From the IMG/VR virus record IMGVR_UViG_3300030406_002399, positions 1 to 32,764 of that record: a stretch of DNA of 32,764 bases; one strand, 5' to 3'. How positions within the stretch are numbered: the first letter of the stretch is position 1; every line of letters starts with the position of its first letter. Below are positions 3,977 through 29,408 of the stretch, piece after piece. The notes under the pieces are model-generated. The model was not told the DNA's origin. It saw only the letters and a program-made list of their open reading frames with translations, and searched no databases. This DNA comes from a virus. The position numbers and the translations under genes are program-made.

Positions 3977-6900
3977 ATGGGAACATATAACGCTTTTAGC
4001 AGAGTTACTGGTAGAGATTATCCATTTAAGATTGACGGAGACACTCCTACACAAACCGAAATGGCTAGAATCAATAAGATACTGGCACAAGAAGAAGGTT
4101 TATCTACAGAAGCCATAGAAAAAGATGATGGCAATTTATTTACCAAAAATATAGGAAGAGGTATTGATACTATACAGCAGGCTTATGGCTCTGCTATTGA
4201 AGGTATTGGTGAGTCTACAGGTCTTGATTTTCTTAAAAACTATGGTGCGTCTGTAGTAGAGGAAAATAGAAAAGAGCTAGAAGCAAGCCAAGATGCCGCA
4301 AGACAATTAGATGATATAAACAATGTAGGTAGTTTTTTTGATTACGCAGGTGCTACATTAGGGTCACAGGTTCCTCAACTTGGTAGCACACTTGCTGGTT
4401 CTGCGGCAGGTTTCTTAGTTGGTGGTCCTGCAGGAGCGGTTGTCGGTGGATTAGCTGCTAATTTACCTTTTTTCTATGGATCAAACAGAGAAGCGCAAAA
4501 AGAAGAAGTAGCGAAGGGTAATAGAATAGAGGTATCTGAGGGCGCTGCTGCGTTAGCTGCGCTACCACAATCGGTGTTAGATTTAATAGCTGATAGATTT
4601 TTAATAGGTGGATTTACTGGTAAGCTAGTTGGTGGCGGAGGTCTTTTTACTAAGGGCGTAAAAGCAGGAATAAAAGAAATAGGTAGGCGTGGCGCAATTG
4701 GGGCCACAAAAGGTGTGGTGACAGAAGTTCCTACAGAGATAGGACAACAAGTTTTAGAAAGATTGCAGGCTGGTAAAAGCCTAACAAACAAAGAAGCAAT
4801 AGATGAATATAAAGAAGTAGCTGCAGCTGCTGCATTAATTGGTGGTACAGTTCGTTCAACAGGGTCCATAGTTGCAGGAAGTAGAGAAAAAAAGTTAACA
4901 AAAGATGAAGAGTTAAATAGAGATCAAGCTAACGAAGCATTACAAACAGAACAACAAATTAAAAATGCAGAGAATTTTTTAGATAATAAAGCATTGCCTG
5001 CCCCTACAACTTCAACTGCAGAAGTACAAGATGATACAGGTGTTGCAGACTTAGAAACAGAAGACAATAAAGTTATAGATAGAGAAAAGATATCTGCGGC
5101 TGAGTTACCATTTTTCCAAAAATACACCAAAGCATTAGACGCTGTTAAAAAGGCAGGCAAGGTAAACCCTACAATAGTTAGAAATGCTATTAGAGAAGAA
5201 GGCAGAAAGATACCTAAAGTTGAGGTTGATGGCATCATAGAAGAAATGTCAAAGCGTGGTGAGATAAAACCTGTTGGCAAAAATAAATTTGAAGTTATGC
5301 AAGATGACCTAGATACCTATAAAGCTAGAGCATCAGCATTAAAGAAAAAAGCAGATCAAATAATAGATGAAAAGAAAGATATACAAAAATCTATTGACGA
5401 AGCCCCTCCCATACCTGCAGTAGATGCAGATCCCGTTACATTAGAAACAAACAGACAAAGGCTTGAGCAGAAGAATCTTGAGTATGATAATGTTGTTAAA
5501 CAGGCATTATTATTAGAAAGAGAGGCGGCTAAGTATATAAAAGAAAGATATGGCACCACCGATGTTAAGGGGACCACAGACCAAAGGGTTGATGTAGAAA
5601 ATCCTGCAAAAGCTAGTTCTATAATTCAAGATCTTACAGCTAAAAGAAGTTTTGATGTAGCAGATAAAAGAAGACTTACAGATAACTACATGAGCAAAAG
5701 GGATGTAGTTATGAAGAAGCTATCTGATAGAATGAAAGCTATTGGATTAGATGACGTTGTTTTACGTCAAGAAAATATAATAACAGGCAATCCAAATGAG
5801 TCCCCTAAAGAAGCAGTGCAGAAAGGTCAGATTTACGAAGGATACTTTCAAACAGAAGAAGGCAAGCCTACTATAGCTTTAGCTATGGAGATTTATGACC
5901 CTAATCTTACTGACGCAGAGTTAGAGTCAAAGATTGGTTCTGTTTTAAACCATGAGGTTATACATGCTATAAAGCGTATGGGTTTATTCACAGCTGAAGA
6001 GTATCAAACACTTACTAATGCTGTTTCTAAAAGAAAATATGTAATTATGGAAGATGGAAAACCATCTACTAGACAATATACATACTTAGACAGAGCTATA
6101 AGAATGAACCCTGATCTTACATCTGAAGGCCAGATAGAAGAAGCTATTGCCGAGATGTACAGAGCATACGCTGATGGCAAGATAATTGTTGCTGGTCAGC
6201 CTAAGACCCTACTACAAAAAATTACTAAGTTTATTAAGTCAATATTTGGCGCTCATGAAGATGCTGGATTTACAGATGTAGATCAAATATTTGAGAATAT
6301 AGGCACTACAGATCAAGAAAAACAAATAGGCAGAAGAAAAAGAGACCCAGAAAGTGTTATGGAAAGGCAAAATAGCCTTCTTAATACACAAGCAAGTCTA
6401 TCAGATCAGCTTACTGGTGATGTTAAGCCTAAAGTTAGACCAAGCAGAACCATACCCCAAAGGGTTAAGACAGCTTATAAGTTATTTGTACAAAGAGCAG
6501 ATGGGCAATTATTACCATTATTTGTTAATGCAGCAGATCCTATACCTGTTGGTCAGTTTATAGAGGCTGATTTTCCTACTGCTACATTTAGGGGCAGACC
6601 AATTACTGGTAAGGGTCCAAATAAAAAACTTGGTACAGAATCTTTTTATGTGCCAACAAAAGGAGCAGAGAGAACTAAAGGCGAAGCTAAAAGAGATACT
6701 GGCACAATGGTATCTATATCTTCAGAACAAGAAAGACAAAAACTTATTGCAGAGGGTTATATAACTGAAAAAACAGGAAGAACTGAACTTAATCCGTATG
6801 GTCAAGTTAGGGCGGTTGCTGCACGACCCGGGTTCCACGCAAGCGTTAAAGCGTATGCGCTGCATTTAGGCCCAGAAGATCTGCAAGTTACAAAAGAAGA

Positions 6901-9900
6901 AGCAAAAATATTAACTGATTTAGGTATGGTTATTAAGCCTAAAGAGGGAAAACTTTTTGTAAAGCGTAGAGCGGAAGATCAGGTGTTTGCCAAAGTGTCA
7001 ATGGCTGATGATGTAGATTATCAAGAGCAAATAAAAGATTCAGGCAGAACAGACATAAATGACAGAGTACCATTAGGTGGTAGCTATGTTTATACAGATG
7101 GACAAGCTAATCAAGATTGGTTAGTTGGCGGTGACATGCGTATTGATAGAGTTTTATCAAGGCAAGAAGCGCAAGCCATAGCACAAAGTCAAGGCGTAAG
7201 AGATTTACCGTACAAGGCAGAAGTAGAAGAGATATTAGGCAGAAAACTATCTAGTGAGTTGCCTGCTGATACAAAGTTTTCTGTTAAAAAGGCAGTTACC
7301 GATGATGTTGCAACAGATGATTTATTAATTGTTACGCACAATATTAAACCTGAAGCATTAGTTAGGGCAGATAAACTGGGTGGTATACCTATGCCATCAA
7401 TAGCAATAACTAAAGCAAGTTTAGGCTTTGAAGGATTTGGTGATATTTCTTTGATTGGTAATGCTAAAATGGCAACACCAAGTAGCGTGGATCAAATTTA
7501 TAAAAGAGATGCTTACACTACAAGGGCGCCAAGGCCCGAAATGGAAGCAACAGATGATGCACTAAAATATATAGAAAATTTAAGAGATAAATTAGAAAGT
7601 GAGTTAATTCAAAAGTATGATTTAGAACCAGTTGGTGAAACAAAAGATGCTTTGATTAATGCATTTGGAAGAAATAAACCACCAAGAGCTAGTTTATCAG
7701 ATTATAGAGAAGAATTAACTGAAGATATTATGTCATTAAATCAAGACTATGATCCCTTTACTTTTGCCGAAATATATTTAGATCAAATGACCCCAATATT
7801 AAGATTAAAATATCTTAATGATGTTGGGGCTATAGATAAAGTATTTCAAGAAGAATTTAAGTCACCATCTTTTCTTCCTGAAGAAGGAAATGAACTTATA
7901 GGCAGAATATTAAATGCAGCAACTGGGTTTGGATTTGATTTAAGAAATGAAATGCAATTTGAGTATGATGAAAAATCTTTAAGAGATTGGCTTTTAACAG
8001 AAAGAGAAAATGCTATAGAAGCTGTTAACAAGCCATATGCAAATAAAAAGATTCCTTTAGTTTTGGAGCGTGTTGCAGATTTTGAAACAGGTGTGAGAAA
8101 AACAGCTACATTAGATAATATTGTATCAATAATGAGAAAAAGGCGAGGCCCAGCACAAGAGAAAGGTTTTGAGCTTGCACTTACATTAGGTCCATTAGCA
8201 GCTAGGGTAACTCCTAGATTTAAAACATTACAAGAAATAAAAAATAGTAGAGATAGAATAAACTATAAAGAGTTCGATAAAGCGAAGGGTGATGTACAAA
8301 GAGCGGCCACTGTATCAGAAGAAGCCTTATATAATTTTCTTAATAATGATCTTATGTTACAGCGAATAGTTAGAAATAATCCTGATGGATATACTGTTGA
8401 TGATGTTGTTAATATTAATGGTATACCTAAAAAAATGCTTGCTAACATATTAGAAAAAAAATCAGACTTTAGATATTCTATTTCACAAGTAATTACAGAT
8501 GAAAGAAAGCAAAAATTTATTCAGAGATTAGAAGAAATACAAAGAGGAGCTATTCCTAAGCCTATTATAGATTTAATAAATGAAACTGGCAGAAGAATAA
8601 AAGCTATGCCAACAGAATATTTTGAAATTAAACCTTTAAGGGCGGTAAAATTAAATGAATTTGTTGGAGCTTTGATACCTGAAGAAACATCTGCACAAGT
8701 TAGACAATTATTAAAAAGAAATATGCCTGATGGTAAGATAGTTGAGTATGGAGAAAGCAGAACAGAAAAATTGATGGAGTTTAAAGATGTTATGTTTTCA
8801 AGAAAACAACTTGATCCTAAGTTGCTTAACCAAAGTATAATTAAAAATTATAAGACTGATGATAATGGTAACATATTAACAAAAGCACAATTAGGTGATG
8901 AAAATCCATTTGTTAGATCAGCACCTGCAGGTACAGTGAAGCTAGAAGATGCATTACAAAAGCTACAAGATGAAAGAGGTGGTGCTGTCTATGATATTAA
9001 TAATGCAGAGGATAGAGAGGCTGTATCACAAATAATTGCTGAAGAAGCTAGGGTTGCTATGGAGCGTGATGATAGCGCAATAGGATGGTATGACCGTACA
9101 CTTAAACTAGCTAAGAAAGTTATAGGTGTTGCACACCCAGAGGTTGATAAATCTAATCCTGCATATAACCCAGATAATGAAGCTGCGTTTGATTTTGCAT
9201 TATCCATAACATCTAACGGATTAGCTATTATTCCTAACTTTAAATTAGCTACAGAGCAATACGAGCATTGGGTTGAGAACGGCACATTTAAAGAAGAGGG
9301 TAAAGATGCTGGTATGAGAAAGGCTTTCTTTGCTTACAATACTATGAAAGAAACTATGTCTGATGCAGAGATAACAGAGTTTCTTAACTCAGACTTCACA
9401 ATGGGTGAACTTAAAGCATTACCAATAATAAAAGAACTTGGAATTACTGTATCTTCAACAGAGACAGTTAACACAATTGTTAAGGGTTCACAAATATTTG
9501 GATCTAAAATAGGTGGTGCGTTCTATCAAAATGTTAGAGGCAACTATGATGCATTGACTATGGATAGATGGTTTATGAGATTCTTTAATAGAATAACAGG
9601 CAATCCATTTAAGGTTATAGGCGAGAATGTATTAAGTGATAATAAAGCTAGATTGTTAAGGGCTGTACAAACAGCAGAAGCACAAAGAAATAATTTTCTT
9701 ATCAATGCTATAGAAGATGCAAAAGATGAAGCAAACTTGGATATTATTAATGATGCTACAGCTATTGAACTAGCTGCTGCTTTAGACAGGCAATATCAAG
9801 TAGCATTTTCTAAAACACCTGTAGAGTTAAGAGAACAAAAAACAGAGCTTGATTTAGCCGCTCAATCTTTGAACAGAAACGCAAATACACAAGTTGTAGA

Positions 9901-12900
9901 GACGCCTCGTAGTGGAGGGGACCGTGCAATGATGCGTCTCGTGATTAATAGAGCGAGACAAATATTAGCTGAGAACGGTATAAATATTAGTAATGCAGAT
10001 ATACAGGCATTGTTATGGTATGCAGAAAAAGATTTATTGGATGCATATGGTGTTAGAAAAGGTCAGGGACTAAAGAATGACTATGTAGATGGCGCTATAG
10101 CAGTATTAAGAGAGAGAGGTATAGAAAATGAAACGATCACAGAAGCACTCCCCCAGTCAGAGAGAAACAGACTCGATAGTGACACAAATACCGAGAGAAA
10201 GATTGAAGGAGTTTATAACCCAAATGATATCGTTACAGAAGAAAAAGCAGACACAGAACAAGAAGTAGAAGAATATGATGTATCTGAGGGTTTAACAGAA
10301 CAAGAGAAATTAGAACAACAAAAACTACAAGATGAGTTTGATAAGTTTAACAGGGTTATGTCTGCAGCTGTTAATCCAAACAAGTTAATTAACGTACCTT
10401 TAGCAGATCCAACTGAAAGTATATTTGGCAATAGATATTTTTACGGCACTGTTAAAGGCCCGCAGGGAAGAATGACCAATGTGGTTTTAACAGAGGGGTT
10501 TCACGAATATAAAGGAACAGATCAGGCAGGCAACCCCATTTATAGTGGTGAGGGATTAGCACATATTCTAGGTGAGCGCGGTAGAAAACCAAGCAGAAGA
10601 GATGAGTTATTAGTTCCCACAGAAGAAGGTAATTGGATAAAATATAAAGATGTTGAAACAGCTATATACGAAACATTAAAAGCATATAAGTATAAGAATG
10701 GTGTAAGGCAAAAATTTGACGGTAAATCAACTGATCTTGTTTTGTTATGGGATAAAGCAAGAATAGCTGGTAAAAACAAAGCTAATAAAACATTAGCACT
10801 AGTTTTAAAATATAAAAAAGATACATATTCACAACCAGTTTATGTAGTCAATACAACATTTTTAGAAGAATCTGATAGGCGTTTAGGAACGCAGCGTGTT
10901 AACTCAGTGGCCACCATGCCAACTTCGGATACGACACCACAATCAAATCAAATAGTTGAAGATATAGAAAAGAAAAGACTTAATATTCAATATAATAACT
11001 TAGCACCAGTTTTAGGTAGGATTGTATCTAAGGTTACATTTGGAAAAATAGAAAAAGAAAAAGCACAAAAAGAAGCAGAAAAAATATTAATTAAGTTTCA
11101 AGATGCTTTATTACCTGTAGGCGCTATGTTGGATGAGCTAAAGAAGAAGGGTTTTACAATAGCTGATGCTTTAGATACATATATGCAGGAAGAGTTATTT
11201 CATGGTGTAGCAGGAGCTAAAGTTGAGAAAATACAAAAAGAATTATTTGAACCATTAGCTGACACTATAAAAACTATAAATATATCAGAGCCTAAATTAA
11301 ATGAACTTAAAGGTATTAGTAACTTTTATATTAGGGCATCAGAGAGATATATCGATAAAAGATTGGCAGTTGCAGATGCCATCCTGTATGCAAGGCATGC
11401 CAAAGAAAGAAACGACTACATAAATAAAAATAAAGCTGGTGACAAGACAAAAGGCTCTGGTATGGCGAATAGTGAAGCTGATGCCATAATAAAATGGCTA
11501 TCCACGCTTGATTCTACTGAAGGTGGCAAGTTAGCTAAGATAGAGAATATATCTAGACAGATAATACAAAGCACTAACAGGCAAAGATTAGATAGTGGTT
11601 TGATATCAAAAGACTTATTAGATAATAACTTTAATTCTAAAGTATATAAATATTATGTGCCACTTAGAGGTGACATCGAATCTGAAGTTGAAACACAAGA
11701 AGATTTGATGGGCAAAACAAGAATGACCACCAATTTGTTTGGCGCAGCGGGTAAGGAAGACCGGTCCGCATTAGGACAAACCGATTATGCAGAAAATATA
11801 ATTGCATCTATGATGGCACAAAACCAAAGATCAATTGATCGTGGTGAGCGTAATAAAGTTGGTAGATCATTTTTAAATTTAATGAGAGGCATGGAGGAGC
11901 AACCTGATGGCACTTTTGCTATTAACGATCAATTAAGAGAACATATGAGTAAGATAGCTGTTTTCTTAGATGATATGCCTAAACAAGCAAGAGATGCACT
12001 AGATCCAAATACAATATTAACGCTAAAAGAAAATGGTGCAGAAGTTAAGGTTCACTTTAAAGATCAAAGAATAGGTCGTGCAATGAAGGGTCACATGACT
12101 CCAGAAAGCATGGGCAAGTTTACTAAAGCGCTTGGTAAAATGAATAAGTATTTATCTAGTATTAATACAACATATAACCCATCATTTGTTATTCCAAACT
12201 TCGCCAGAGACTTGCAAGCAGCTGGTGTGAACATGCAACAGTACGATCAAAAAGGGATGACGAAAGAAGTATTAACCAGTGCGTTACCAGCAGTAAAAGG
12301 AATAGTTGCTGTATTAAGAGGTGGTCAAGAAACCTTTTGGTCTAAAGAATATAATAAGTTTGTTGAAGCTGGTGGTAAAAATGCCACAAATCAGATGGGC
12401 GATCTTCAGGATCAGATTAATAATATTGGAGATATATTAGGAGATATATCTGATACAGGAATAAAGAAGAAGCTAGGTTTAAATAAAAATGGATTTACAA
12501 GAAACTTATTAAAAATATTAGATGACTATAACACAGCAGTTGAGAATGGTGTCAGAGTTGCAACATTCACTTCGTTAGTTAAGCGTGGCGTTACACCGGC
12601 CCGGGCTGCACAAGCGGCAAGGAACGTAACCGTGAACTTTGCGAAGGGTGGAGAAAATAAGACCCTAATGAACTCTTGGTATTTATTTTATAATGCATCA
12701 CTTCAGGGTTCAATGGCGCTTATTAATGCTGCCGCGAAGTCAAAGAAGGTGAGAAAAGTTTGGGGTGGTTTGGTTATCTACGGCATCATGCAAGATCAGA
12801 TCAATTCACTATTATCTGGCGATGAAGATGAAGATGGAATTAAAGATTATGATGAATTACCTAGATACGTTTTAGAGCATAATTTAATACTACCTACCTT

Positions 12901-13810
12901 TGGACTGGCAGATGATAAGTTTATAATGATACCTTTATCTTATGGTCTTAACTTGGCAGTTAACTTTGGTAGATCATTAAGTAGATCAGCTAGGGGAGAA
13001 TACACTGCAGGAGAAGCCAGTAGGTCTATCTTCGGCACTGCGTTTGAGAGTATTAGTCCGTTTGGTGGATTTGATAACATTTACAACCTTACAGCACCTA
13101 CAGTACTTGATCCTTTTGTCAGTTTGGCTATCAACGAGGATTATAAGGGAGATCCTATATACAAAGAAAGTCCTACATTCTCATCACGACCAACACCTGA
13201 TAGTCAAGCATACTGGTCTAATACTAGTTCCATAGCAAAAGGAATTGCAGACTCAATAAACAGTATTACTGGTGGAGATGCAGTAGAGAGTGGTTATATA
13301 GACTTTAGCCCTAATACATTAGAGTTCTGGTTTGATTACTTCGCTGGTGGCACGGGAGCTTTTGTACAAAGATCTTTTGAAGCTCCTGTCGCTATTTACG
13401 ATGCTTTGCAAGGGGACTTTGAAGGCGATATAATGAGAGCAGTTCCACTAGTTAGAAAGGTAGTAATAAGTCCTAGTGAAAGAGAAGATGTAGGAAACTA
13501 TTTAGAGAACAGACAAGACCTGTACACGATACTAGCTAGAATAGACCTAGCAAAGAAGTCAGGAGATGGATCAACTGTTAGAAGCCTATTCACAGAGTAC
13601 AGAGATCAGTTAAGGATAGCTGGAAGAATAAAGGCTATTGATAATGCAAGGAATAGATTATTACGGCAGATTAAAGAGATAGAAGCTAACCCACGAATAC
13701 CAGAAAAAACAAAGTTAAACCTAAAGAGAATCAGAAGACAAAAGATAAATGATCTGATGAAGCAAGGTCTTATATTAATGAGATCGGCAGGTTTTAAAAA
13801 GGCAGGATAA
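3977..13810 (+). CDS. Giant polyvalent ejection-type protein with zinc-peptidase motif
   Basis: 3277 residues, about 30% of the window and without a stop. Visible parts: a helical Gly/Ala-rich, membrane-active-looking region (about 115-300); HEVIH at residues 659-663 followed some 50 residues on by EEAIAEMYRAYADG, the HExxH...E layout of the metallopeptidase domain of phage/plasmid polyvalent proteins; a region from GFHASVKAYALHLG (about 952) to VGGDMRIDRVL; a region from VTHNIKPEALVRADKLGG (about 1119) that recurs in large polyvalent proteins; a helical domain around WFMRFFN (about 1865); a GLAHILGERG segment (about 2194) reminiscent of the nuclease-like domains at the ends of MuF-type proteins; and a conserved C-terminal block after about 2950. 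By position and size it probably is ejected with the DNA, as T7 gp16 or N4 virion RNA polymerase are. No RNA polymerase or lytic transglycosylase motif was recognised. Start follows the AAGG within the dyad at 3963-3974. Confidence 0.85.
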   Translation: MGTYNAFSRVTGRDYPFKIDGDTPTQTEMARINKILAQEEGLSTEAIEKDDGNLFTKNIGRGIDTIQQAYGSAIEGIGESTGLDFLKNYGASVVEENRKELEASQDAARQLDDINNVGSFFDYAGATLGSQVPQLGSTLAGSAAGFLVGGPAGAVVGGLAANLPFFYGSNREAQKEEVAKGNRIEVSEGAAALAALPQSVLDLIADRFLIGGFTGKLVGGGGLFTKGVKAGIKEIGRRGAIGATKGVVTEVPTEIGQQVLERLQAGKSLTNKEAIDEYKEVAAAAALIGGTVRSTGSIVAGSREKKLTKDEELNRDQANEALQTEQQIKNAENFLDNKALPAPTTSTAEVQDDTGVADLETEDNKVIDREKISAAELPFFQKYTKALDAVKKAGKVNPTIVRNAIREEGRKIPKVEVDGIIEEMSKRGEIKPVGKNKFEVMQDDLDTYKARASALKKKADQIIDEKKDIQKSIDEAPPIPAVDADPVTLETNRQRLEQKNLEYDNVVKQALLLEREAAKYIKERYGTTDVKGTTDQRVDVENPAKASSIIQDLTAKRSFDVADKRRLTDNYMSKRDVVMKKLSDRMKAIGLDDVVLRQENIITGNPNESPKEAVQKGQIYEGYFQTEEGKPTIALAMEIYDPNLTDAELESKIGSVLNHEVIHAIKRMGLFTAEEYQTLTNAVSKRKYVIMEDGKPSTRQYTYLDRAIRMNPDLTSEGQIEEAIAEMYRAYADGKIIVAGQPKTLLQKITKFIKSIFGAHEDAGFTDVDQIFENIGTTDQEKQIGRRKRDPESVMERQNSLLNTQASLSDQLTGDVKPKVRPSRTIPQRVKTAYKLFVQRADGQLLPLFVNAADPIPVGQFIEADFPTATFRGRPITGKGPNKKLGTESFYVPTKGAERTKGEAKRDTGTMVSISSEQERQKLIAEGYITEKTGRTELNPYGQVRAVAARPGFHASVKAYALHLGPEDLQVTKEEAKILTDLGMVIKPKEGKLFVKRRAEDQVFAKVSMADDVDYQEQIKDSGRTDINDRVPLGGSYVYTDGQANQDWLVGGDMRIDRVLSRQEAQAIAQSQGVRDLPYKAEVEEILGRKLSSELPADTKFSVKKAVTDDVATDDLLIVTHNIKPEALVRADKLGGIPMPSIAITKASLGFEGFGDISLIGNAKMATPSSVDQIYKRDAYTTRAPRPEMEATDDALKYIENLRDKLESELIQKYDLEPVGETKDALINAFGRNKPPRASLSDYREELTEDIMSLNQDYDPFTFAEIYLDQMTPILRLKYLNDVGAIDKVFQEEFKSPSFLPEEGNELIGRILNAATGFGFDLRNEMQFEYDEKSLRDWLLTERENAIEAVNKPYANKKIPLVLERVADFETGVRKTATLDNIVSIMRKRRGPAQEKGFELALTLGPLAARVTPRFKTLQEIKNSRDRINYKEFDKAKGDVQRAATVSEEALYNFLNNDLMLQRIVRNNPDGYTVDDVVNINGIPKKMLANILEKKSDFRYSISQVITDERKQKFIQRLEEIQRGAIPKPIIDLINETGRRIKAMPTEYFEIKPLRAVKLNEFVGALIPEETSAQVRQLLKRNMPDGKIVEYGESRTEKLMEFKDVMFSRKQLDPKLLNQSIIKNYKTDDNGNILTKAQLGDENPFVRSAPAGTVKLEDALQKLQDERGGAVYDINNAEDREAVSQIIAEEARVAMERDDSAIGWYDRTLKLAKKVIGVAHPEVDKSNPAYNPDNEAAFDFALSITSNGLAIIPNFKLATEQYEHWVENGTFKEEGKDAGMRKAFFAYNTMKETMSDAEITEFLNSDFTMGELKALPIIKELGITVSSTETVNTIVKGSQIFGSKIGGAFYQNVRGNYDALTMDRWFMRFFNRITGNPFKVIGENVLSDNKARLLRAVQTAEAQRNNFLINAIEDAKDEANLDIINDATAIELAAALDRQYQVAFSKTPVELREQKTELDLAAQSLNRNANTQVVETPRSGGDRAMMRLVINRARQILAENGINISNADIQALLWYAEKDLLDAYGVRKGQGLKNDYVDGAIAVLRERGIENETITEALPQSERNRLDSDTNTERKIEGVYNPNDIVTEEKADTEQEVEEYDVSEGLTEQEKLEQQKLQDEFDKFNRVMSAAVNPNKLINVPLADPTESIFGNRYFYGTVKGPQGRMTNVVLTEGFHEYKGTDQAGNPIYSGEGLAHILGERGRKPSRRDELLVPTEEGNWIKYKDVETAIYETLKAYKYKNGVRQKFDGKSTDLVLLWDKARIAGKNKANKTLALVLKYKKDTYSQPVYVVNTTFLEESDRRLGTQRVNSVATMPTSDTTPQSNQIVEDIEKKRLNIQYNNLAPVLGRIVSKVTFGKIEKEKAQKEAEKILIKFQDALLPVGAMLDELKKKGFTIADALDTYMQEELFHGVAGAKVEKIQKELFEPLADTIKTINISEPKLNELKGISNFYIRASERYIDKRLAVADAILYARHAKERNDYINKNKAGDKTKGSGMANSEADAIIKWLSTLDSTEGGKLAKIENISRQIIQSTNRQRLDSGLISKDLLDNNFNSKVYKYYVPLRGDIESEVETQEDLMGKTRMTTNLFGAAGKEDRSALGQTDYAENIIASMMAQNQRSIDRGERNKVGRSFLNLMRGMEEQPDGTFAINDQLREHMSKIAVFLDDMPKQARDALDPNTILTLKENGAEVKVHFKDQRIGRAMKGHMTPESMGKFTKALGKMNKYLSSINTTYNPSFVIPNFARDLQAAGVNMQQYDQKGMTKEVLTSALPAVKGIVAVLRGGQETFWSKEYNKFVEAGGKNATNQMGDLQDQINNIGDILGDISDTGIKKKLGLNKNGFTRNLLKILDDYNTAVENGVRVATFTSLVKRGVTPARAAQAARNVTVNFAKGGENKTLMNSWYLFYNASLQGSMALINAAAKSKKVRKVWGGLVIYGIMQDQINSLLSGDEDEDGIKDYDELPRYVLEHNLILPTFGLADDKFIMIPLSYGLNLAVNFGRSLSRSARGEYTAGEASRSIFGTAFESISPFGGFDNIYNLTAPTVLDPFVSLAINEDYKGDPIYKESPTFSSRPTPDSQAYWSNTSSIAKGIADSINSITGGDAVESGYIDFSPNTLEFWFDYFAGGTGAFVQRSFEAPVAIYDALQGDFEGDIMRAVPLVRKVVISPSEREDVGNYLENRQDLYTILARIDLAKKSGDGSTVRSLFTEYRDQLRIAGRIKAIDNARNRLLRQIKEIEANPRIPEKTKLNLKRIRRQKINDLMKQGLILMRSAGFKKAG

Positions 13811-20906: not shown

Positions 20907-21356
20907 TTAATCATACAAGTAATCGTTATTGGGTTTAGTTTCCCACCTATAAAATATGTGGTCATCTATTCTTGTAATAAATGTTTTTGTTTCTGCCCAA
21001 CTAGGATTTACATAGTCAGCATGATAATGTGTTGCACCCTCGACAAGCTCACTTAAATGTTGATTATAAACACCATTGGCAACATGCATGGCATCTTCCC
21101 ATGCTTCGGTTTCTATGGGTTTATCGCTTTTGCCATCACAATACCAACTGAATTGACATTTATTTTTTATAGGAAGTGATGGTTTCCATTTGTAGGTTTG
21201 ACCTTGTTTTACAACCTCACAAACTGTATTAGGATATCTTTCATCTTTTACCCTATTCATAACAACTTGTGCGACTGCCACTTGCCCTAAGAAACTTTGA
21301 TTTTTAGCTTCATGATAAACGTTAAGTGCAAGGCATACTAATGATGCAGTAAGCAT
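20907..21356 (-). CDS. SleB-type cell wall hydrolase
   Basis: 149 residues, full-length Hydrolase_2 (SleB/CwlJ) domain: ALNVYHEAKNQ with the catalytic-type Glu16, GQVAVAQVVMNRV, RYPNTVCEVV, CQFSWYCDGK and ATHYHADYVNPSW are all intact. The family cuts peptidoglycan as a lytic transglycosylase or amidase. The N terminus MLTASLVCLALN is hydrophobic but too short for a clear signal peptide. It is encoded with the early/middle minus-strand genes rather than next to the T4-type lysozyme at 56-502, so it may be a second lysis enzyme or act at entry. It starts 17 bases after a GTTAACGTTAAC-TTTTAGGAG leader. Confidence 0.92.
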   Translation of the reverse strand: MLTASLVCLALNVYHEAKNQSFLGQVAVAQVVMNRVKDERYPNTVCEVVKQGQTYKWKPSLPIKNKCQFSWYCDGKSDKPIETEAWEDAMHVANGVYNQHLSELVEGATHYHADYVNPSWAETKTFITRIDDHIFYRWETKPNNDYLYD

Positions 21357-21373
21357 TATAAAATCTCCTAAAA

Positions 21374-21385
21374 GTTAACGTTAAC
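21374..21385 (-). promoter_or_regulatory. Dyad leader GTTAACGTTAAC before SleB gene
   Basis: Perfect 12-bp palindrome followed on the minus strand by TTTTAGGAG and the SleB ATG; 17 bases separate motif and start. It covers the stop codon of the upstream small gene. Identical leader core at 23060-23071. Confidence 0.6.
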
Positions 21386-23044: not shown

Positions 23045-23059
23045 TCTAATCTCCTAAAA

Positions 23060-23071
23060 GTTAACGTTAAC
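23060..23071 (-). promoter_or_regulatory. Dyad leader GTTAACGTTAAC before small-gene operon
   Basis: Same perfect palindrome as at 21374-21385, followed on the minus strand by TTTTAGGAG and, 15 bases from the motif, the TTG start at 23044. Confidence 0.6.
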
Positions 23072-23130: not shown

Positions 23131-23955
23131 TCATGAGATTAGGCTACCAATAACGTTTCTGCCTATTCTCTGGGATAATCCTACCTCAGCTCTTTTAAGC
23201 TCTGGACTAACTGAAGTTACTCTTTCAGATGGTTTAATGACTTTACCCTCAGAGTTTACTGTGTAGTCCATTTGTTTAAATGATGCCAAGTACATGTCAT
23301 CAATCATGGTAATATCTCCACCGTGAGAATGTAATATAGTTGCTTTGTGAACATCTATATCATCTTGTTGCAATCGTCTTACTGGGTAAGGCTCGACTTT
23401 CATAACAAAACAAGGTCTGCCTTTGTAAACTACATCATGCAGTCCATGTTTAAAAACTTTGTGATACCACAATGGGGATAGAAATATGCCAGTAGACGAG
23501 TAATGAGATTGCCCTTTCTCTATATCATTCTGTCTGTCTGTTTGACATTTGATATCAACATAAGTTCTAGGGTTTCTATCTCTCCACCATATGGTAGCAG
23601 TTTCTACTGTATTCGCTGATAGCTTTTCAAAGATATCAAACTTTTTCATAAAGCCATCAGTACCTACAGATCCCTTAACAGTCTTGGATCTATATTCTTT
23701 TATGCCATGAATAAGTTGACCAATATGATCCATTGCTTGAGCATTGTAATAATTAAGATTGTCCTTAACTCTTTGTACTTCTTTTTTCATCTCTGGGTCT
23801 TGTGGAAACCCACCACCAATAGCATAAGTATTAGATGCAAAATATTTAAAGTCCATACCCATTGACTTTGCTAATACTGGTAGTGATTTTTTAGCTTGTA
23901 AATAAAACTGGTGTTCTATTTGAGCTTTAGTTTTAAGATTTTTATATACGTTCAT
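23131..23955 (-). CDS. Unknown protein next to the MoxR/VWA pair
   Basis: 274 residues, no family recognised. It starts with a helical part (KTKAQIEHQFYLQAKKSLPV), followed by GGGFPQDPEMKKEVQRVKDN and a beta-rich centre (TATIWWRDRNPRTYVDIKC, SPLWYHKVFKHGLHDVVYKG). The C terminus contains SPELKRAEVGLSQRIGRNVI. No signal peptide or TM segment. GGAG stands eight bases before the ATG. It lies 72 bases downstream of the VWA-peptidase gene in the same direction, with a strong hairpin between; it may be a substrate or partner of that pair, but nothing in the sequence shows this. Confidence 0.7.
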   Translation of the reverse strand: MNVYKNLKTKAQIEHQFYLQAKKSLPVLAKSMGMDFKYFASNTYAIGGGFPQDPEMKKEVQRVKDNLNYYNAQAMDHIGQLIHGIKEYRSKTVKGSVGTDGFMKKFDIFEKLSANTVETATIWWRDRNPRTYVDIKCQTDRQNDIEKGQSHYSSTGIFLSPLWYHKVFKHGLHDVVYKGRPCFVMKVEPYPVRRLQQDDIDVHKATILHSHGGDITMIDDMYLASFKQMDYTVNSEGKVIKPSERVTSVSPELKRAEVGLSQRIGRNVIGSLIS

Positions 23956-24027: not shown

Positions 24028-25158
24028 TTAAGCAACTTTTAGATAAGTGGTATTTCCAATAGGTGCTTCATCTTGGTTAACGTCAGTCGATACCCAGAGT
24101 AAAGGGAAGTCAACTTGCTTTGGATAATCCCAGATACCCAGATCAGTAAAGTAGATCATGCTATCCACATTAAGATTATTCAATCTGATATAATCAAATA
24201 CTGGCATGACACATGTACCACCACGACCATTGCACTTGATATCCTCAATAATATCTCCATGCTCATACCTCTTTACAGTTTGTATTATGGCATCACATGT
24301 AATGACTGTTATTGAGTTAGGCTTGATCTCCTCAGACAATGCATTCAGCTCTCCTAGAAAATGTTTAAGCTCTTTATTGCTAACACTCCCAGAGCTATCA
24401 ACACCTATGACAATATCTCCAACACCAACTTTATTTGATACTGGAGTTATCACTCTATTGATATCCCATTGTCTTTTGTTGGGTCTACGATAAGAATAAC
24501 CCTCTGGCTGATCTCCAACAACATGTCTTCTTAAAACGTCAGTCCAGTCAACTTGAGATCTCTTCATCTCATTGATTATCTGCTTTACACTTGATGGTAA
24601 TTTGCCAATAGCTTTTGCAGTATTGACTGCCATAACTGTTTCAGCATTAATCTTTGCGACCTCTTGTTTTATCTGGTCTTCAGACATGCCCTCTTGAGGA
24701 ATAACCATACCCCATGACTGAGGTTTAGGTTTCTCTTCAGCTTTTGAGTTCAAGATATCATATATCTTTTCAGCTCTCATGCCCTTGTATTGCTTATCTA
24801 ATAAACCACCTTTAGGCATCTGGGTTAATCCACTTTCTACAAGAGAATAATTAATGGCATAATCACAAGCTATATTCCATAGCTCTGCATCTCTTTTGCC
24901 ATGTCTTAAATGGTGCAGTAAAACTCTATGCAAACACTCATGACATAAAACAAAGTCAAGCTCTGCTTCAGATAAATTATCTGTAAACTCTTCATTGTAG
25001 AAAATGTTAGTCCCATCAGTTGCCATTGTAGGTATATCATTCTTAACAACTAAAGGCATTTTATAGAGGACTGAAGCATAAAACCCCAGTCCATTCTTAT
25101 CTTTATCGACCATAAGTCTAACCTTAGATCTAACCAATTTACGTTGTAAATCGTGCAT
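24028..25158 (-). CDS. DUF2201-type metallopeptidase-like / VWA protein
   Basis: 376 residues in two recognisable parts. N-terminal (about 1-135): a zinc-peptidase-like domain with CHECLHRVLLHH (His73, Glu74, His77 as HExxH) and LWNIACDYAIN, whose Asp99 is a likely third ligand. C-terminal (about 235-376): a von Willebrand A fold with a complete metal-ion-dependent adhesion site, DSSGS (Asp254, Ser256, Ser258), Thr315 in GRGGT and Asp339 in YFTDLG. The architecture matches DUF2201/COG3864 proteins encoded beside MoxR ATPases. Here the MoxR gene is immediately upstream and co-oriented. Probable joint role: ATP-driven, metal-dependent remodelling or maturation of a target. The start is preceded by TTAACTTTTAGAGGAG. 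Confidence 0.88.
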   Translation of the reverse strand: MHDLQRKLVRSKVRLMVDKDKNGLGFYASVLYKMPLVVKNDIPTMATDGTNIFYNEEFTDNLSEAELDFVLCHECLHRVLLHHLRHGKRDAELWNIACDYAINYSLVESGLTQMPKGGLLDKQYKGMRAEKIYDILNSKAEEKPKPQSWGMVIPQEGMSEDQIKQEVAKINAETVMAVNTAKAIGKLPSSVKQIINEMKRSQVDWTDVLRRHVVGDQPEGYSYRRPNKRQWDINRVITPVSNKVGVGDIVIGVDSSGSVSNKELKHFLGELNALSEEIKPNSITVITCDAIIQTVKRYEHGDIIEDIKCNGRGGTCVMPVFDYIRLNNLNVDSMIYFTDLGIWDYPKQVDFPLLWVSTDVNQDEAPIGNTTYLKVA

Positions 25159-25174
25159 CTCAACTCCTCTAAAA

Positions 25175-25187
25175 GTTAAGGTGTAAC
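25175..25187 (-). promoter_or_regulatory. Degenerate dyad leader before VWA-peptidase gene
   Basis: GTTAAGGTGTAAC, read on the minus strand as TTAACTTTTAGAGGAG before the ATG 16 bases on. One half-site is merged with a hairpin (25180-25201). Fits the 15-17 bp spacing of the other minus-strand leaders. Confidence 0.5.
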
Positions 25188-25201
25188 ATTTAAGTTACAC
25201 C
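25180..25201 (-). terminator. Hairpin over the MoxR stop codon
   Basis: GGTGTAAC (25180-25187) and GTTACACC (25194-25201) form a perfect 8-bp stem with a 6-base loop that spans the MoxR stop codon. On the minus strand it is followed by TTAACTTTT, so partial termination between MoxR and the VWA gene is possible and could set their ratio. Confidence 0.45.
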
Positions 25202-26253
25202 AAATATTTTCCATTGCCAGACTTACCAGCCCATAAACGAACATCTTTATTTTGTTTAAGGCTTTCATCTCTGCTCAATGCATCTTTAAGAAAGTATGCT
25301 TGAAATTCCTCGTTAGGTAATCTCTGAACATACTGCAATATGTTACCCATATTCTTATCAGTAGCTCTCATTGATAGAGCTGAACATAAAGCAAACATGA
25401 TTGGTGGATCTTCAACTACTGGAGTGTTCATTGGATCAGCAATCAACTTGTCTATGTCTGGACATTTTTCGTGAATGTCCATATGGGTTTTAAGATTGGC
25501 ATATGCACTAGCTCCAATTTGTCCAGAGATAGCTTCAGCCATTGCTTCTTCGTCTAGCTCCCATTTAAGCATAGTTGCCACCCTCTCATGAGATCTAGGA
25601 GTAGGATAAGAATTTACACCTTTTTGGAATTGATGCAAAAACTCTGGTTGGAAACGTAACCAAGAGATGATCCTATGATCTACACCAGTCTTAGCAAAAT
25701 AAGAACAAGTGTCATCTAGGTTAGCTTCAATCTCTAGGAATGAAAGTCTATCAACTAAATGACTTGGCATGGCATTAGTTCCTGCCTTGTCAGATAATTT
25801 GTTACCACATGACATTATGTAACAATGTGATCTATCAATGTGGTATTCTCCAACTCTATATTCATCACATATTTGAGCATAGATATTCATGTTAAGAACT
25901 GGAGCTTGAGGGAGTTCATCAAATACATATAAGATGCCCTTATATCCCTGAGCTTTCAGCTCTTGCCATTCTTCGTCAGTAACAATCCAGTCTGGTCTAA
26001 GCACTTTCATACTGTCCCCATCTGGCATTCTTAAACCACCAATGTCAGTAGGCTCAAATTGTGCCAGAGAAACAATAACTAAATGTAGTTTCATTTCTTC
26101 TGCAACTTGCCTACACAATGCAGTTTTTCCTATACCCATAGAGCCTTCAAGGTGTAGGGATATAGGCTTTTTAGATTTGTCGTTCTCATAGTCAAAATTA
26201 AAACTATGATTGATTGCTTCGATAAATATTTTTTTTGCTATAGATAATCTCAT
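25195..26253 (-). CDS. MoxR-type AAA+ ATPase
   Basis: 352 residues. Walker A GSMGIGKT (Lys43, Thr44), GGL loop after FEPTDIGG, Walker B LYVFDE (Asp112, Glu113), sensor-1 Asn151 in SCGN, and an arginine-finger region HLVDRL (Arg169) place it in the MoxR/AAA_5-like group. MoxR ATPases form hexamers that, with VWA-domain partners, load metals or remodel protein complexes (as NorQ-NorD, CoxD-CoxE, RavA-ViaA). The VWA partner is the next gene downstream, 36 bases away. AGGAG is about ten bases before the ATG. What a phage does with the pair is unknown. Confidence 0.9.
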   Translation of the reverse strand: MRLSIAKKIFIEAINHSFNFDYENDKSKKPISLHLEGSMGIGKTALCRQVAEEMKLHLVIVSLAQFEPTDIGGLRMPDGDSMKVLRPDWIVTDEEWQELKAQGYKGILYVFDELPQAPVLNMNIYAQICDEYRVGEYHIDRSHCYIMSCGNKLSDKAGTNAMPSHLVDRLSFLEIEANLDDTCSYFAKTGVDHRIISWLRFQPEFLHQFQKGVNSYPTPRSHERVATMLKWELDEEAMAEAISGQIGASAYANLKTHMDIHEKCPDIDKLIADPMNTPVVEDPPIMFALCSALSMRATDKNMGNILQYVQRLPNEEFQAYFLKDALSRDESLKQNKDVRLWAGKSGNGKYLV

Positions 26254-26256
26254 TTT

Positions 26257-26529
26257 CTATGCACTCCTTGTTTTAAATGTTATGCCACTTTTTTTATTGT
26301 AGCTGAAAAGTTTATTGCCAGATTTTAATCTTATACTGCCTTGATCCAGTCTAAATCTTCTGTATTGCTTCTTTTGAAAATCATAGACTGTGATTAAGTC
26401 TGGTGTATCTCTGGCTTCAAATTTTAATACACCATGAAAGTATCTCTTATCTTTAGTAGACATTTTAAAAAAATGTCCACTAACAATTCTGCCCTTAAAA
26501 AAGGTAATGATTTCTTTTTGTTTATTCAT
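26257..26529 (-). CDS. Small basic hypothetical protein
   Basis: 90 residues, unrecognised, rich in Lys, Arg, Phe and Tyr. Alternating beta-like segments (KRYFHGVLKFEARDTPDLIT, VYDFQKKQYRRFRLDQGSI) suggest a small SH3- or OB-like barrel, perhaps binding nucleic acid. It sits three bases upstream of the MoxR ATPase gene and carries that gene's Shine-Dalgarno in its end, so it is in the same message. Confidence 0.6.
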   Translation of the reverse strand: MNKQKEIITFFKGRIVSGHFFKMSTKDKRYFHGVLKFEARDTPDLITVYDFQKKQYRRFRLDQGSIRLKSGNKLFSYNKKSGITFKTRSA

Positions 26530-26531
26530 AA

Positions 26532-26804
26532 TTACTCCTCTGATAAACAGTCGTTACACCCACAATATTCTGATTGCAGATCGTCTTGTAGTTGATACCA
26601 AACACTTTCCCAAATTGTTTTCATTTTTGGTCTAGCTTCAAGCTCCCCCATTGTATCTAAATAAGTGCTATGAACACCTATTAAGGGAAACCAATGCTTG
26701 TCTTTTGTTGGGTAAATACAGATCTGATATCCATCATCTCCAATGTGAATGTCATACCAAACACCCAACTCTTTCATTTTATTTTCGCATTTAGTTTTAT
26801 TCAT
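26532..26804 (-). CDS. Small hypothetical protein with C-terminal Cys motif
   Basis: 90 residues, unrecognised. Aromatic-rich (GVWYDIHIGDDGYQICIYPT, KDKHWFPLIGVHSTYLDTMG), with a C-terminal CGCNDC that could bind a metal. It overlaps the gene upstream by 8 bases and is spaced two bases from the gene downstream, so it belongs to the accessory operon that leads to MoxR. Confidence 0.6.
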   Translation of the reverse strand: MNKTKCENKMKELGVWYDIHIGDDGYQICIYPTKDKHWFPLIGVHSTYLDTMGELEARPKMKTIWESVWYQLQDDLQSEYCGCNDCLSEE

Positions 26805-26976
26805 TATCGATTATATCCTCGATATCTATTTGCTGACTATGAAGTTCAGCTTGGTTAAATTGTTTAGCAATCTTTTGCTTTTCGATTTCAAGATTGTTGG
26901 CTATATCTAACAATCCATCTTTAACTAGATCAGAAATAATCTGATCTAGTTTTTGAATAATCTCTAATTCATTCAT
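26797..26976 (-). CDS. Small acidic helical protein
   Basis: 59 residues from the ATG at 26976, which lies in the end of the previous gene; a longer version starting at 27006 would overlap it by 38 bases. Heptad-like pattern (IIQKLDQIISDLVKDGLLDI, NLEIEKQKIAKQFNQ) suggests a coiled coil, followed by an acidic end (DIEDIIDNE). No Shine-Dalgarno is clear, so translation is probably coupled to the upstream gene. Confidence 0.55.
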   Translation of the reverse strand: MNELEIIQKLDQIISDLVKDGLLDIANNLEIEKQKIAKQFNQAELHSQQIDIEDIIDNE

Positions 26977-27175
26977 TAGGCATATTCTCATGGTTTTGAA
27001 TTTCAACCATTACGTCAAGTAATGATCTAAGAAACTTATTTTGATTTGATGTAAGCTCCTCTTCATGGATCATCATAAATTGTTCAATGTCCAAGTTATT
27101 TGGGTTATTACCTATGGTGTACTTAATCCAGTCATCATAGATTTTATTAAGGTTATTTGTGTGTAAATTTTTCAT
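26969..27175 (-). CDS. Small acidic hypothetical protein
   Basis: 68 residues, unrecognised, mostly helical: LNKIYDDWIKYTIGNNPNNL then TSNQNKFLRSLLDVMVEIQ. GGAG lies just before the ATG. It opens the group of four small genes that ends at MoxR, and follows two short hairpins downstream of the 243-residue gene. Confidence 0.58.
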   Translation of the reverse strand: MKNLHTNNLNKIYDDWIKYTIGNNPNNLDIEQFMMIHEEELTSNQNKFLRSLLDVMVEIQNHENMPNE

Positions 27176-27261: not shown

Positions 27262-27993
27262 TTAGATACCCAGAGCTTTAAATGTATCTTTAACTTGCTG
27301 ATTGTCTTCAGACTGATCCTTAGAGCTTTCTTTATTAGCTTTCTCTACTGCTTCCCACATACGTTTAGCATCAGCCAAAGTTTCTTCAATGATCTTGATA
27401 TCATCAGCAGTTAGATCAGTTTGTACAAACTTATCTTCAGCTACACCCTCAGTATTTTTAACACTCTTCATCTTGCCATAAATCATTCTGGCAATTTTAT
27501 CTCCAAGCATAATATCGTCTTGAGGGTTTACTGCTTGTTTAAGTTTGGTCTGGGAAGTGATGCCATTATCTGACATTATTTCTCTTATCATCTCTGGTGT
27601 AGCTTGAGATGGTACATCAAACTTAACTACAAACTTAACTGAATTATCTTTTAGTAACTTAGCATTCGCTTTACTCATGTTACATTCGTTAACTAAGTCC
27701 TCACTAATTGCCCTCGTATCAGCTTTAGTAAGGTTACCAGAAGCAGAAAGTTTTAATGGTGCTATATGGGTTATTAAACCTACATACTGGTCAATCTTCA
27801 GCTCATTAACTAGCTTAGTATTTTCAGAGTTTGTAGATTTTAAACCAGAAATTTCAGCTTCACTACCTCTGATCTGGTCAACAAGTTCATTAGTAAATCT
27901 TGGGTCTTTTTGAGTTTCTTTGTTCAATTTCTTATCCTCTTTTATGATTGGTGTTACGTTGTCGAATACGACTTTTTGATTAGCTTTAGCCAT
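27262..27993 (-). CDS. Unknown protein heading the accessory operon
   Basis: 243 residues, no family recognised. A charged N-terminal segment with coiled-coil character (about 30-65: ETQKDPRFTNELVDQIRGSE), a compact middle (YVGLITHIAPLKLSASGNLT ... VKFVVKFDVPS) and an acidic C-terminal helix and tail ending KDTFKALGI. No TM or signal peptide. It is the first gene after the dyad leader at 28010-28022 and lies upstream of the small genes and MoxR/VWA pair, so it could be a substrate or scaffold for them; this is inference from order only. Confidence 0.68.
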   Translation of the reverse strand: MAKANQKVVFDNVTPIIKEDKKLNKETQKDPRFTNELVDQIRGSEAEISGLKSTNSENTKLVNELKIDQYVGLITHIAPLKLSASGNLTKADTRAISEDLVNECNMSKANAKLLKDNSVKFVVKFDVPSQATPEMIREIMSDNGITSQTKLKQAVNPQDDIMLGDKIARMIYGKMKSVKNTEGVAEDKFVQTDLTADDIKIIEETLADAKRMWEAVEKANKESSKDQSEDNQQVKDTFKALGI

Positions 27994-29176: not shown

Positions 29177-29320
29177 CCTAGTTTCGCTATTTTCGTTAGT
29201 CTTGTTACCCCACCTACCCCTACCCACCCGTGTAGCTGTAGCCCTGTCCACACGTACTACAGTTGATTTTACTCATAAAAATTCATATTTTTTTCAAAAA
29301 AAATAAAAAGGGGCTTGTCT
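29177..29320. other. C-rich stretch after terminase small subunit
   Basis: No gene. The plus strand carries a C-rich run of ACC/ACCC units (29206-29230) and a 6-bp inverted repeat CTGTAG/CTACAG (29236-29241, 29257-29262), strikingly GC-rich in this AT-rich phage. Being between the two terminase genes, it is a candidate packaging (pac or cos) site; nothing more direct is visible. Confidence 0.35.
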
Positions 29321-29396
29321 ACTAGTTATAACTAGTATATATATTTAGTTATACTAGTATAAATAACTAGTTATAACTAGTAATGTTATAACTAGT
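29321..29396. repeat. Palindrome cluster 2 (ACTAGTTATAACTAGT)
   Basis: Full copies at 29321-29336 and 29366-29381 separated by AT-rich sequence with a degenerate ACTAGT copy, then a partial GTTATAACTAGT at 29385-29396. Read on the minus strand the order is partial, full, full, as in cluster 1 at 18315-18380. It ends 12 bases before the TTG start of the next gene. Confidence 0.85.
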
Positions 29397-29408
29397 AGGG
29401 AAAACGGA

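Follow-up and report, generated by a model that had tools for sequence, protein, structure and literature searches.

Gene organisation and a shared start box

The DNA analysed here (the window) is a 32,764-base IMG/VR virus record, apparently a genome fragment, for which no nucleotide-level match was found among known phages. On its minus strand, a gene for a MoxR-type AAA+ ATPase of 352 aa (positions 25195–26253) lies 36 nt upstream of a DUF2201-type gene for a putative metallopeptidase-VWA cochaperone of 376 aa (24028–25158), hereafter the VWA protein. A preliminary description of the same DNA had read a MoxR gene directly upstream of a DUF2201-type gene, and both open reading frames are found at these positions and on this strand. 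A 22-nt perfect hairpin (25180–25201, minus strand) spans the MoxR stop codon and the gap between the two genes.

The pair is flanked by two mid-sized genes on the same strand: P274 (274 aa, 23131–23955), with a predicted helical N-terminus and beta-rich C-terminus (AF2 mean pLDDT 79), and, upstream of MoxR, P243 (243 aa, 27262–27993), predicted to be mostly helical (AF2 mean pLDDT 79.5). Four small minus-strand ORFs separate P243 from MoxR. Directly upstream of MoxR is a 90-aa protein (26257–26529; found by profile at 21 loci) with a weak WYL_2/Sm-like match that stays below the cut-off (Pfam WYL_2, E 0.0048). It is preceded by a poorly conserved 90-aa ORF (26532–26804) that the profile finds in the window's own record only, a 69-aa ORF with a TTG start (26797–27006; 17 loci) and a 68-aa ORF (26969–27175; 5 loci), the last two shifting in place among operons. 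The preliminary description, which counted three partners in its title and two mid-sized plus four small ones in its text, was right in the latter count: the 274-aa, the 243-aa and the four small ORFs (26257–27175) all exist, and relatives conserve the two mid-sized ones at the protein level.

The pair sits in a leftward, non-structural operon from which the packaging genes diverge. A cell-wall-hydrolase-like protein of 149 aa with a PHROG endolysin match (20907–21356, minus strand) lies at the end of the same gene block. On the plus strand, a giant protein of 3277 aa (3977–13810) matches LPD38 (3.4e-33) and PBECR5, a barnase/EndoU-like nuclease domain (3.6e-20), and with these two domains it looks like a polyvalent protein. 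Its PHROG matches are phrog_14770, 616 and 10691 and not phrog_2206; it does not belong to the N4 virion RNA polymerase family, and the window lacks this mark of the Schitoviridae. Nested perfect inverted repeats, ACTAGTTATAACTAGT, occur at 29319–29398, upstream of the terminase large-subunit gene.

A box, TTAACTTTTAGGAG, of the form TTAACTTTT(N)GGAG, is found in five copies 20–22 nt before gene starts, all of them in the leftward operon and on its strand. Before the VWA gene it reads TTAACTTTTAGAGG (25166–25179, 21 nt before the start); the same box precedes P243 (28002–28014, 21 nt), P274 (23963–23975, 20 nt) and an 82-aa ORF downstream of P274 (S82; 23051–23064, 20 nt), and a TTAACTTTTAGGAG copy precedes the 149-aa hydrolase (21365–21378). 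Five boxes before starts compare with 0.4 expected, and none of 200 random sequences had as many. In a sister contig, the structural genes contain a single imperfect copy, inside the giant gene, and in relatives (for example L004, L005, L011, L017 and L020) boxes precede the VWA gene and other genes of the same region. The box is possibly a phage promoter or translation signal; since part of it is the ribosome-binding site (Shine-Dalgarno), it may be translational only. By this box, VWA, P243 and P274 form a set apart from the structural genes.

The MoxR–VWA core and its distribution

Pfam assigns the N-terminal part of the VWA protein to DUF2201_N, a putative metallopeptidase (1.7e-34), and its VWA-like part to DUF2201 (2.1e-21); the ATPase matches AAA (2.8e-4). 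An HExxH motif (HECLH, from residue 73) is fused in this way to a VWA domain with a complete MIDAS, which includes a DSSGS stretch from residue 254. The intact HECLH and the MIDAS (D254, S256, S258, T315, D339) noted in the preliminary description withstand comparison: H73, E74, H77, H82, D99 and the five MIDAS residues are invariant in 87 of 87 full-length viral homologues, which reach down to about 27% identity, so that neither zinc nor MIDAS residues vary at all in this set. The ATPase has Walker A and B motifs together with sensor and arginine residues, and the Walker A lysine K43, N151 and R220 are invariant in 84/84 ATPases. The strictly kept HExxH suggests cleavage besides remodelling; the zinc domain could also serve binding only. 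Among solved structures, none matches the ATPase by sequence, and the VWA partner matches general VWA proteins only.

The label 'HNH endonuclease' is attached to the metallopeptidase-VWA family in phrog_1314, in the RefSeq entry for N4 gp25 and in many phage records, and in Vibrio phage SBP1 a gene annotated as an HNH endonuclease lies between MoxR and VWA. We rejected this label for the VWA protein of the window, in which Pfam gives just DUF2201_N, DUF2201 and weak zincin matches, with no HNH nuclease domain. As a library label it currently hides the family in phage annotations.

Of 50,697 phage records searched by tblastn, 593 gave a match to the VWA protein and 521 to the ATPase, every match being below 60% identity. 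Carriers of the pair include Escherichia phage N4 (gp25 and gp24) and other Schitoviridae, jumbo phages, phage G, cyanophages and a Thermus phage, and the two genes share a strand at 84 of 85 loci, with a gap that ranges from an overlap to several kilobases. We are confident that the window's ATPase (phrog_1297) and VWA protein (phrog_1314) belong to the N4 gp24/gp25 family. In N4-like phages, gp24 and gp25 are middle transcripts and count among 14 core genes; a 2014 comparison of 25 N4-like phages found them in every one, listed gp25 as a vWFA domain and gave the function of both as unknown (PMC4193335). The preliminary description had called the pair an accessory investment, a term that does not fit a family belonging to the core genes of N4-like phages. 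No statement on gp24/gp25 was found in the main text of a CRISPRi-ART paper that has N4 in its phage list. The same combination of MoxR and metallopeptidase-vWA was described in jumbo phages by Iyer et al. in 2021 (PMC7824862). The core pair itself is thus already known, and what is new here is the P243 and P274 families as its neighbours.

Bacterial relatives keep HExxH in 78/80 cases and have a MoxR gene at most 300 bases away in 61/80. In a tree of 75 VWA proteins, phage and cell rows are intermixed, and the strongly supported branches force at least 5 changes between them; because the bootstrap had not settled, we read this mixing only as repeated exchange. A PHROG tally of 81 neighbour families gave replication, packaging and unknown functions mixed together and was not decisive.

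Clade-specific third components

Profile searches found P274 at 27 loci and P243 at 31. Within the window's clade, both are present wherever a locus has sufficient flanking sequence, and the gene order is P243, small genes, MoxR, VWA, P274. Neither partner gave a match in direct tblastn against phage records. In a comparison with VMAP-type MoxR-vWA ternary conflict systems, which are characterised by a VMAP component and effector domains, the general models of Pfam and PADLOC gave no match to P243 or P274 either. P274 diverges fastest among the proteins compared: relatives share about 30–36% identity in P274, 60–65% in VWA, 69–72% in MoxR and 88–91% in TerL. At the loci L028, L029, L030, L031, L037, L038 and L053, VWA is immediately followed by a 146-aa phrog_3754-like gene, which precedes P274 on contigs long enough to include the latter; P243 at these loci ends in LDNNPF, which recalls an SSB-type tail.

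Fold searches with P274 gave no match in the PDB and one significant viral match, to a protein of 321 aa (E 3.7e-8). Roseobacter phage CRP-7 gp16 is also 321 aa long and is encoded directly after the CRP-7 VWA gene; in an hhalign comparison of P274 with 208 candidates it scored best (23% versus 2.5% for the next). Judging from the equal length and the separate hhalign result, the BFVD entry A0A646QWM3 would be CRP-7 gp16, a probable distant relative of P274. P243 likewise has one significant viral fold match, which is uncharacterised. We take P274 and P243 to be genuine families, conserved and of no known fold. In Planktothrix phage Pra-JY27, the gene before MoxR resembles P243 (E 1e-4) but was not counted, given its biased composition and a second match elsewhere in that genome.

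Outside the window's clade the flanks differ. By profile, P243 and P274 are absent from N4, SBP1, S-TIM5, phage G, phiFa, the jumbo phages and the phages that share the window's head module; these carry DUF3150, an Nmad5-like protein or no detectable third component. Since viral records are mostly fragments, absence is claimed here for complete or near-complete genomes only. The expectation that the two partners always accompany the pair is borne out in all clade members with sufficiently long sequence, and the strict module fails elsewhere.

Neighbour clustering identified a family of ~290 aa, with genes that adjoin MoxR and VWA or lie between them, in 24 phage loci and also in 15/80 bacterial loci; 11 of 23 members match DUF3150 in Pfam (best 1.7e-9), and DUF3150 adjoins MoxR/VWA in 13/75 bacterial loci. 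Ten loci make up a third group and encode a 225-aa protein (c5 family) whose C-terminus matches Nmad5 (1e-6). In the L034–L047 group and in G031, such an Nmad5-like C-terminal segment is found in the gene that separates MoxR from VWA; in Dhillonvirus, Tmn-escape mutations arise in an Nmad5 gene. The 85 viral loci with both core genes divide without overlap into 32 with P243/P274, 23 with DUF3150, 10 with the Nmad5-like protein and 20 with none detected. This exclusivity is a pattern and not an independent test, because the sets follow phylogeny. The window and the records of its clade contain no DUF3150 gene and are not members of the MoxR-DUF3150-VWA cassette, and hhalign of P274 and P243 against the DUF3150 or Nmad5-like family gave a probability below 1%.

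To us these data suggest a remodelling/protease core that is conserved and a third component that is specific to the clade. A broader reading, to which we give some credence but less than even weight, is that MoxR and the metallopeptidase-VWA protein are a core engine of bacteria and phages with interchangeable third subunits (DUF3150, Nmad5-like, P243/P274), the client adaptor being particular to each phage lineage and P274 serving this marine lineage as a rapidly evolving reader of clients.

Proposed function and relation to known systems

The mechanism that we propose is modelled on NorQ/NorD (PMC9976466). As in other members of its family, MoxR would form an ATP-driven hexamer on which the DUF2201 protein docks, the MIDAS metal gripping an acidic residue of the client as suggested by NorD, and ATP hydrolysis by the ring would remodel the client, by homology to NorQ/NorD (PMC9976466). 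The invariant zinc-site residues point to the N-terminal HExxH domain as the part that would then cleave the remodelled client. P243/P274, DUF3150 or the Nmad5-like protein are most likely client adaptors or the clients themselves. Because of the start box, the timing (N4 gp24/gp25 are middle transcripts) and the head-related phages that lack the pair, the machine most likely acts early or in the middle of infection, and its client, of phage or host origin, most likely lies outside the conserved head assembly line. Taken as a whole, a MoxR-VWA remodelling/protease machine with a clade-specific third component and an early/middle, non-head client is the reading that we favour, with moderate confidence.

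The head-related phages also bear on a role in virion assembly, in which the pair would fold and trim structural proteins as the particle is built. A sister contig of the window's clade (L020; L096, L097) has the portal and the MCP (62–68% identical) in common with HTVC027P, 023Pt_psg01 and DSL-LC04, to whose TerL that of the window is 54–57% identical. MoxR and VWA are absent from these three phages, with no DUF2201_N in their whole records, and the pair is absent by profile from HTVC023P, which has related TerL and MCP; all four are complete and are related by head or packaging genes. Five other near-complete contigs of the head clade carry the pair with DUF3150 instead of P243/P274, and two have neither. 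Since head-related phages lack it, the pair appears dispensable for this head type. N4 gp24/25 being middle genes, and the place of the window's pair in a non-structural operon divergent from the packaging genes, also speak against assembly. Nevertheless, virion assembly with proteolysis is what Iyer et al. favoured for the same domain architecture in jumbo phages (PMC7824862); p618/p892 of Acidianus two-tailed virus (ATV) are a cited precedent, roseophage RPP1 encodes four virion proteins near its gp24/gp25 homologues, and the S-TIM5 pair adjoins Hsp20 and a virion gene. We regard an assembly role as unlikely, though worth serious consideration.

The differing partner sets, the rapid divergence of P274 (about 30–36% identity, against 60–65% for VWA and about 90% for TerL), the link of one group to an Nmad5-like protein and the early/middle context would also suit host takeover or counter-defence, in which the machine dismantles a host protein and P274/P243 act as target adaptors. 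However, core status in N4-like phages of many hosts favours a phage-internal job, and PADLOC returned no defence or counter-defence family beyond weak AAA matches, all to the ATPase, which goes against the anti-defence role offered in the preliminary description. Host takeover thus seems rather improbable to us.

That description had further suggested that the pair activates the giant protein. Maturation or unfolding of this giant (3977–13810), a probably ejected polyvalent protein with LPD38 and PBECR5 domains, accords with the presence of a giant ORF of >1800 aa in 6/7 pair-positive versus 2/6 pair-negative head-clade genomes, but at a Fisher p of about 0.10 the suggestion finds weak support. 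Two genomes have a giant but no pair and one has the pair but no giant, LPD38 is missing from most pair-bearing genomes, and a tracking of the LPD38 giant by the pair, not significant among head-clade genomes, was rejected; we consider this role doubtful. Metal loading without proteolysis would recall the need for NorQ/NorD in iron insertion, and the MoxR of cyanophage S-CREM1 groups with the CGN subfamily, but the strictly invariant HExxH argues for catalysis and no metalloenzyme client was recognised near the pair, which makes this reading very improbable.

If the core of the favoured remodelling/protease machine is an unfoldase-protease with exchangeable adaptors, it would represent a new regulated-proteolysis system in phages. 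The differing third components (DUF3150, P243, P274 and the N4 neighbours) are concrete baits for a client search, and the absence of the pair from head-related phages shows where the client need not be sought.

Among known systems, NorQ/NorD and CbbQ/CbbO resemble the window in combining a MoxR AAA+ ring with a VWA adaptor that has a MIDAS. Unlike the window pair, they have known metalloenzyme clients, and to our knowledge their VWA proteins have no HExxH metallopeptidase domain. The bacterial MoxR-DUF3150-DUF2201 cassette of Acidobacteriota, Cloacimonadota and others has the same core pair with HExxH and MIDAS motif intact, but its third gene is DUF3150 and not P243/P274. The jumbo-phage pair shares the two-protein architecture with an N-terminal metallopeptidase fused to vWA (PMC7824862); the jumbo-phage relatives examined here differ from the window in their separated genes and lack of P243/P274, and their virion role is a proposal. 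N4 gp24/gp25, core genes of the Schitoviridae, agree with the window in homologous MoxR and DUF2201 proteins, order and strand, whereas the gap is wider, the neighbours are a dCTP deaminase and other genes, and no P243, P274 or DUF3150 was found. CRP-7 (gp07, gp15 and gp16) is the nearest isolate by MoxR (31%); unlike the window it has seven small genes between MoxR and VWA and no P243 by profile, but its gp16, the probable P274 relative, lies directly after VWA, as P274 does in the window.
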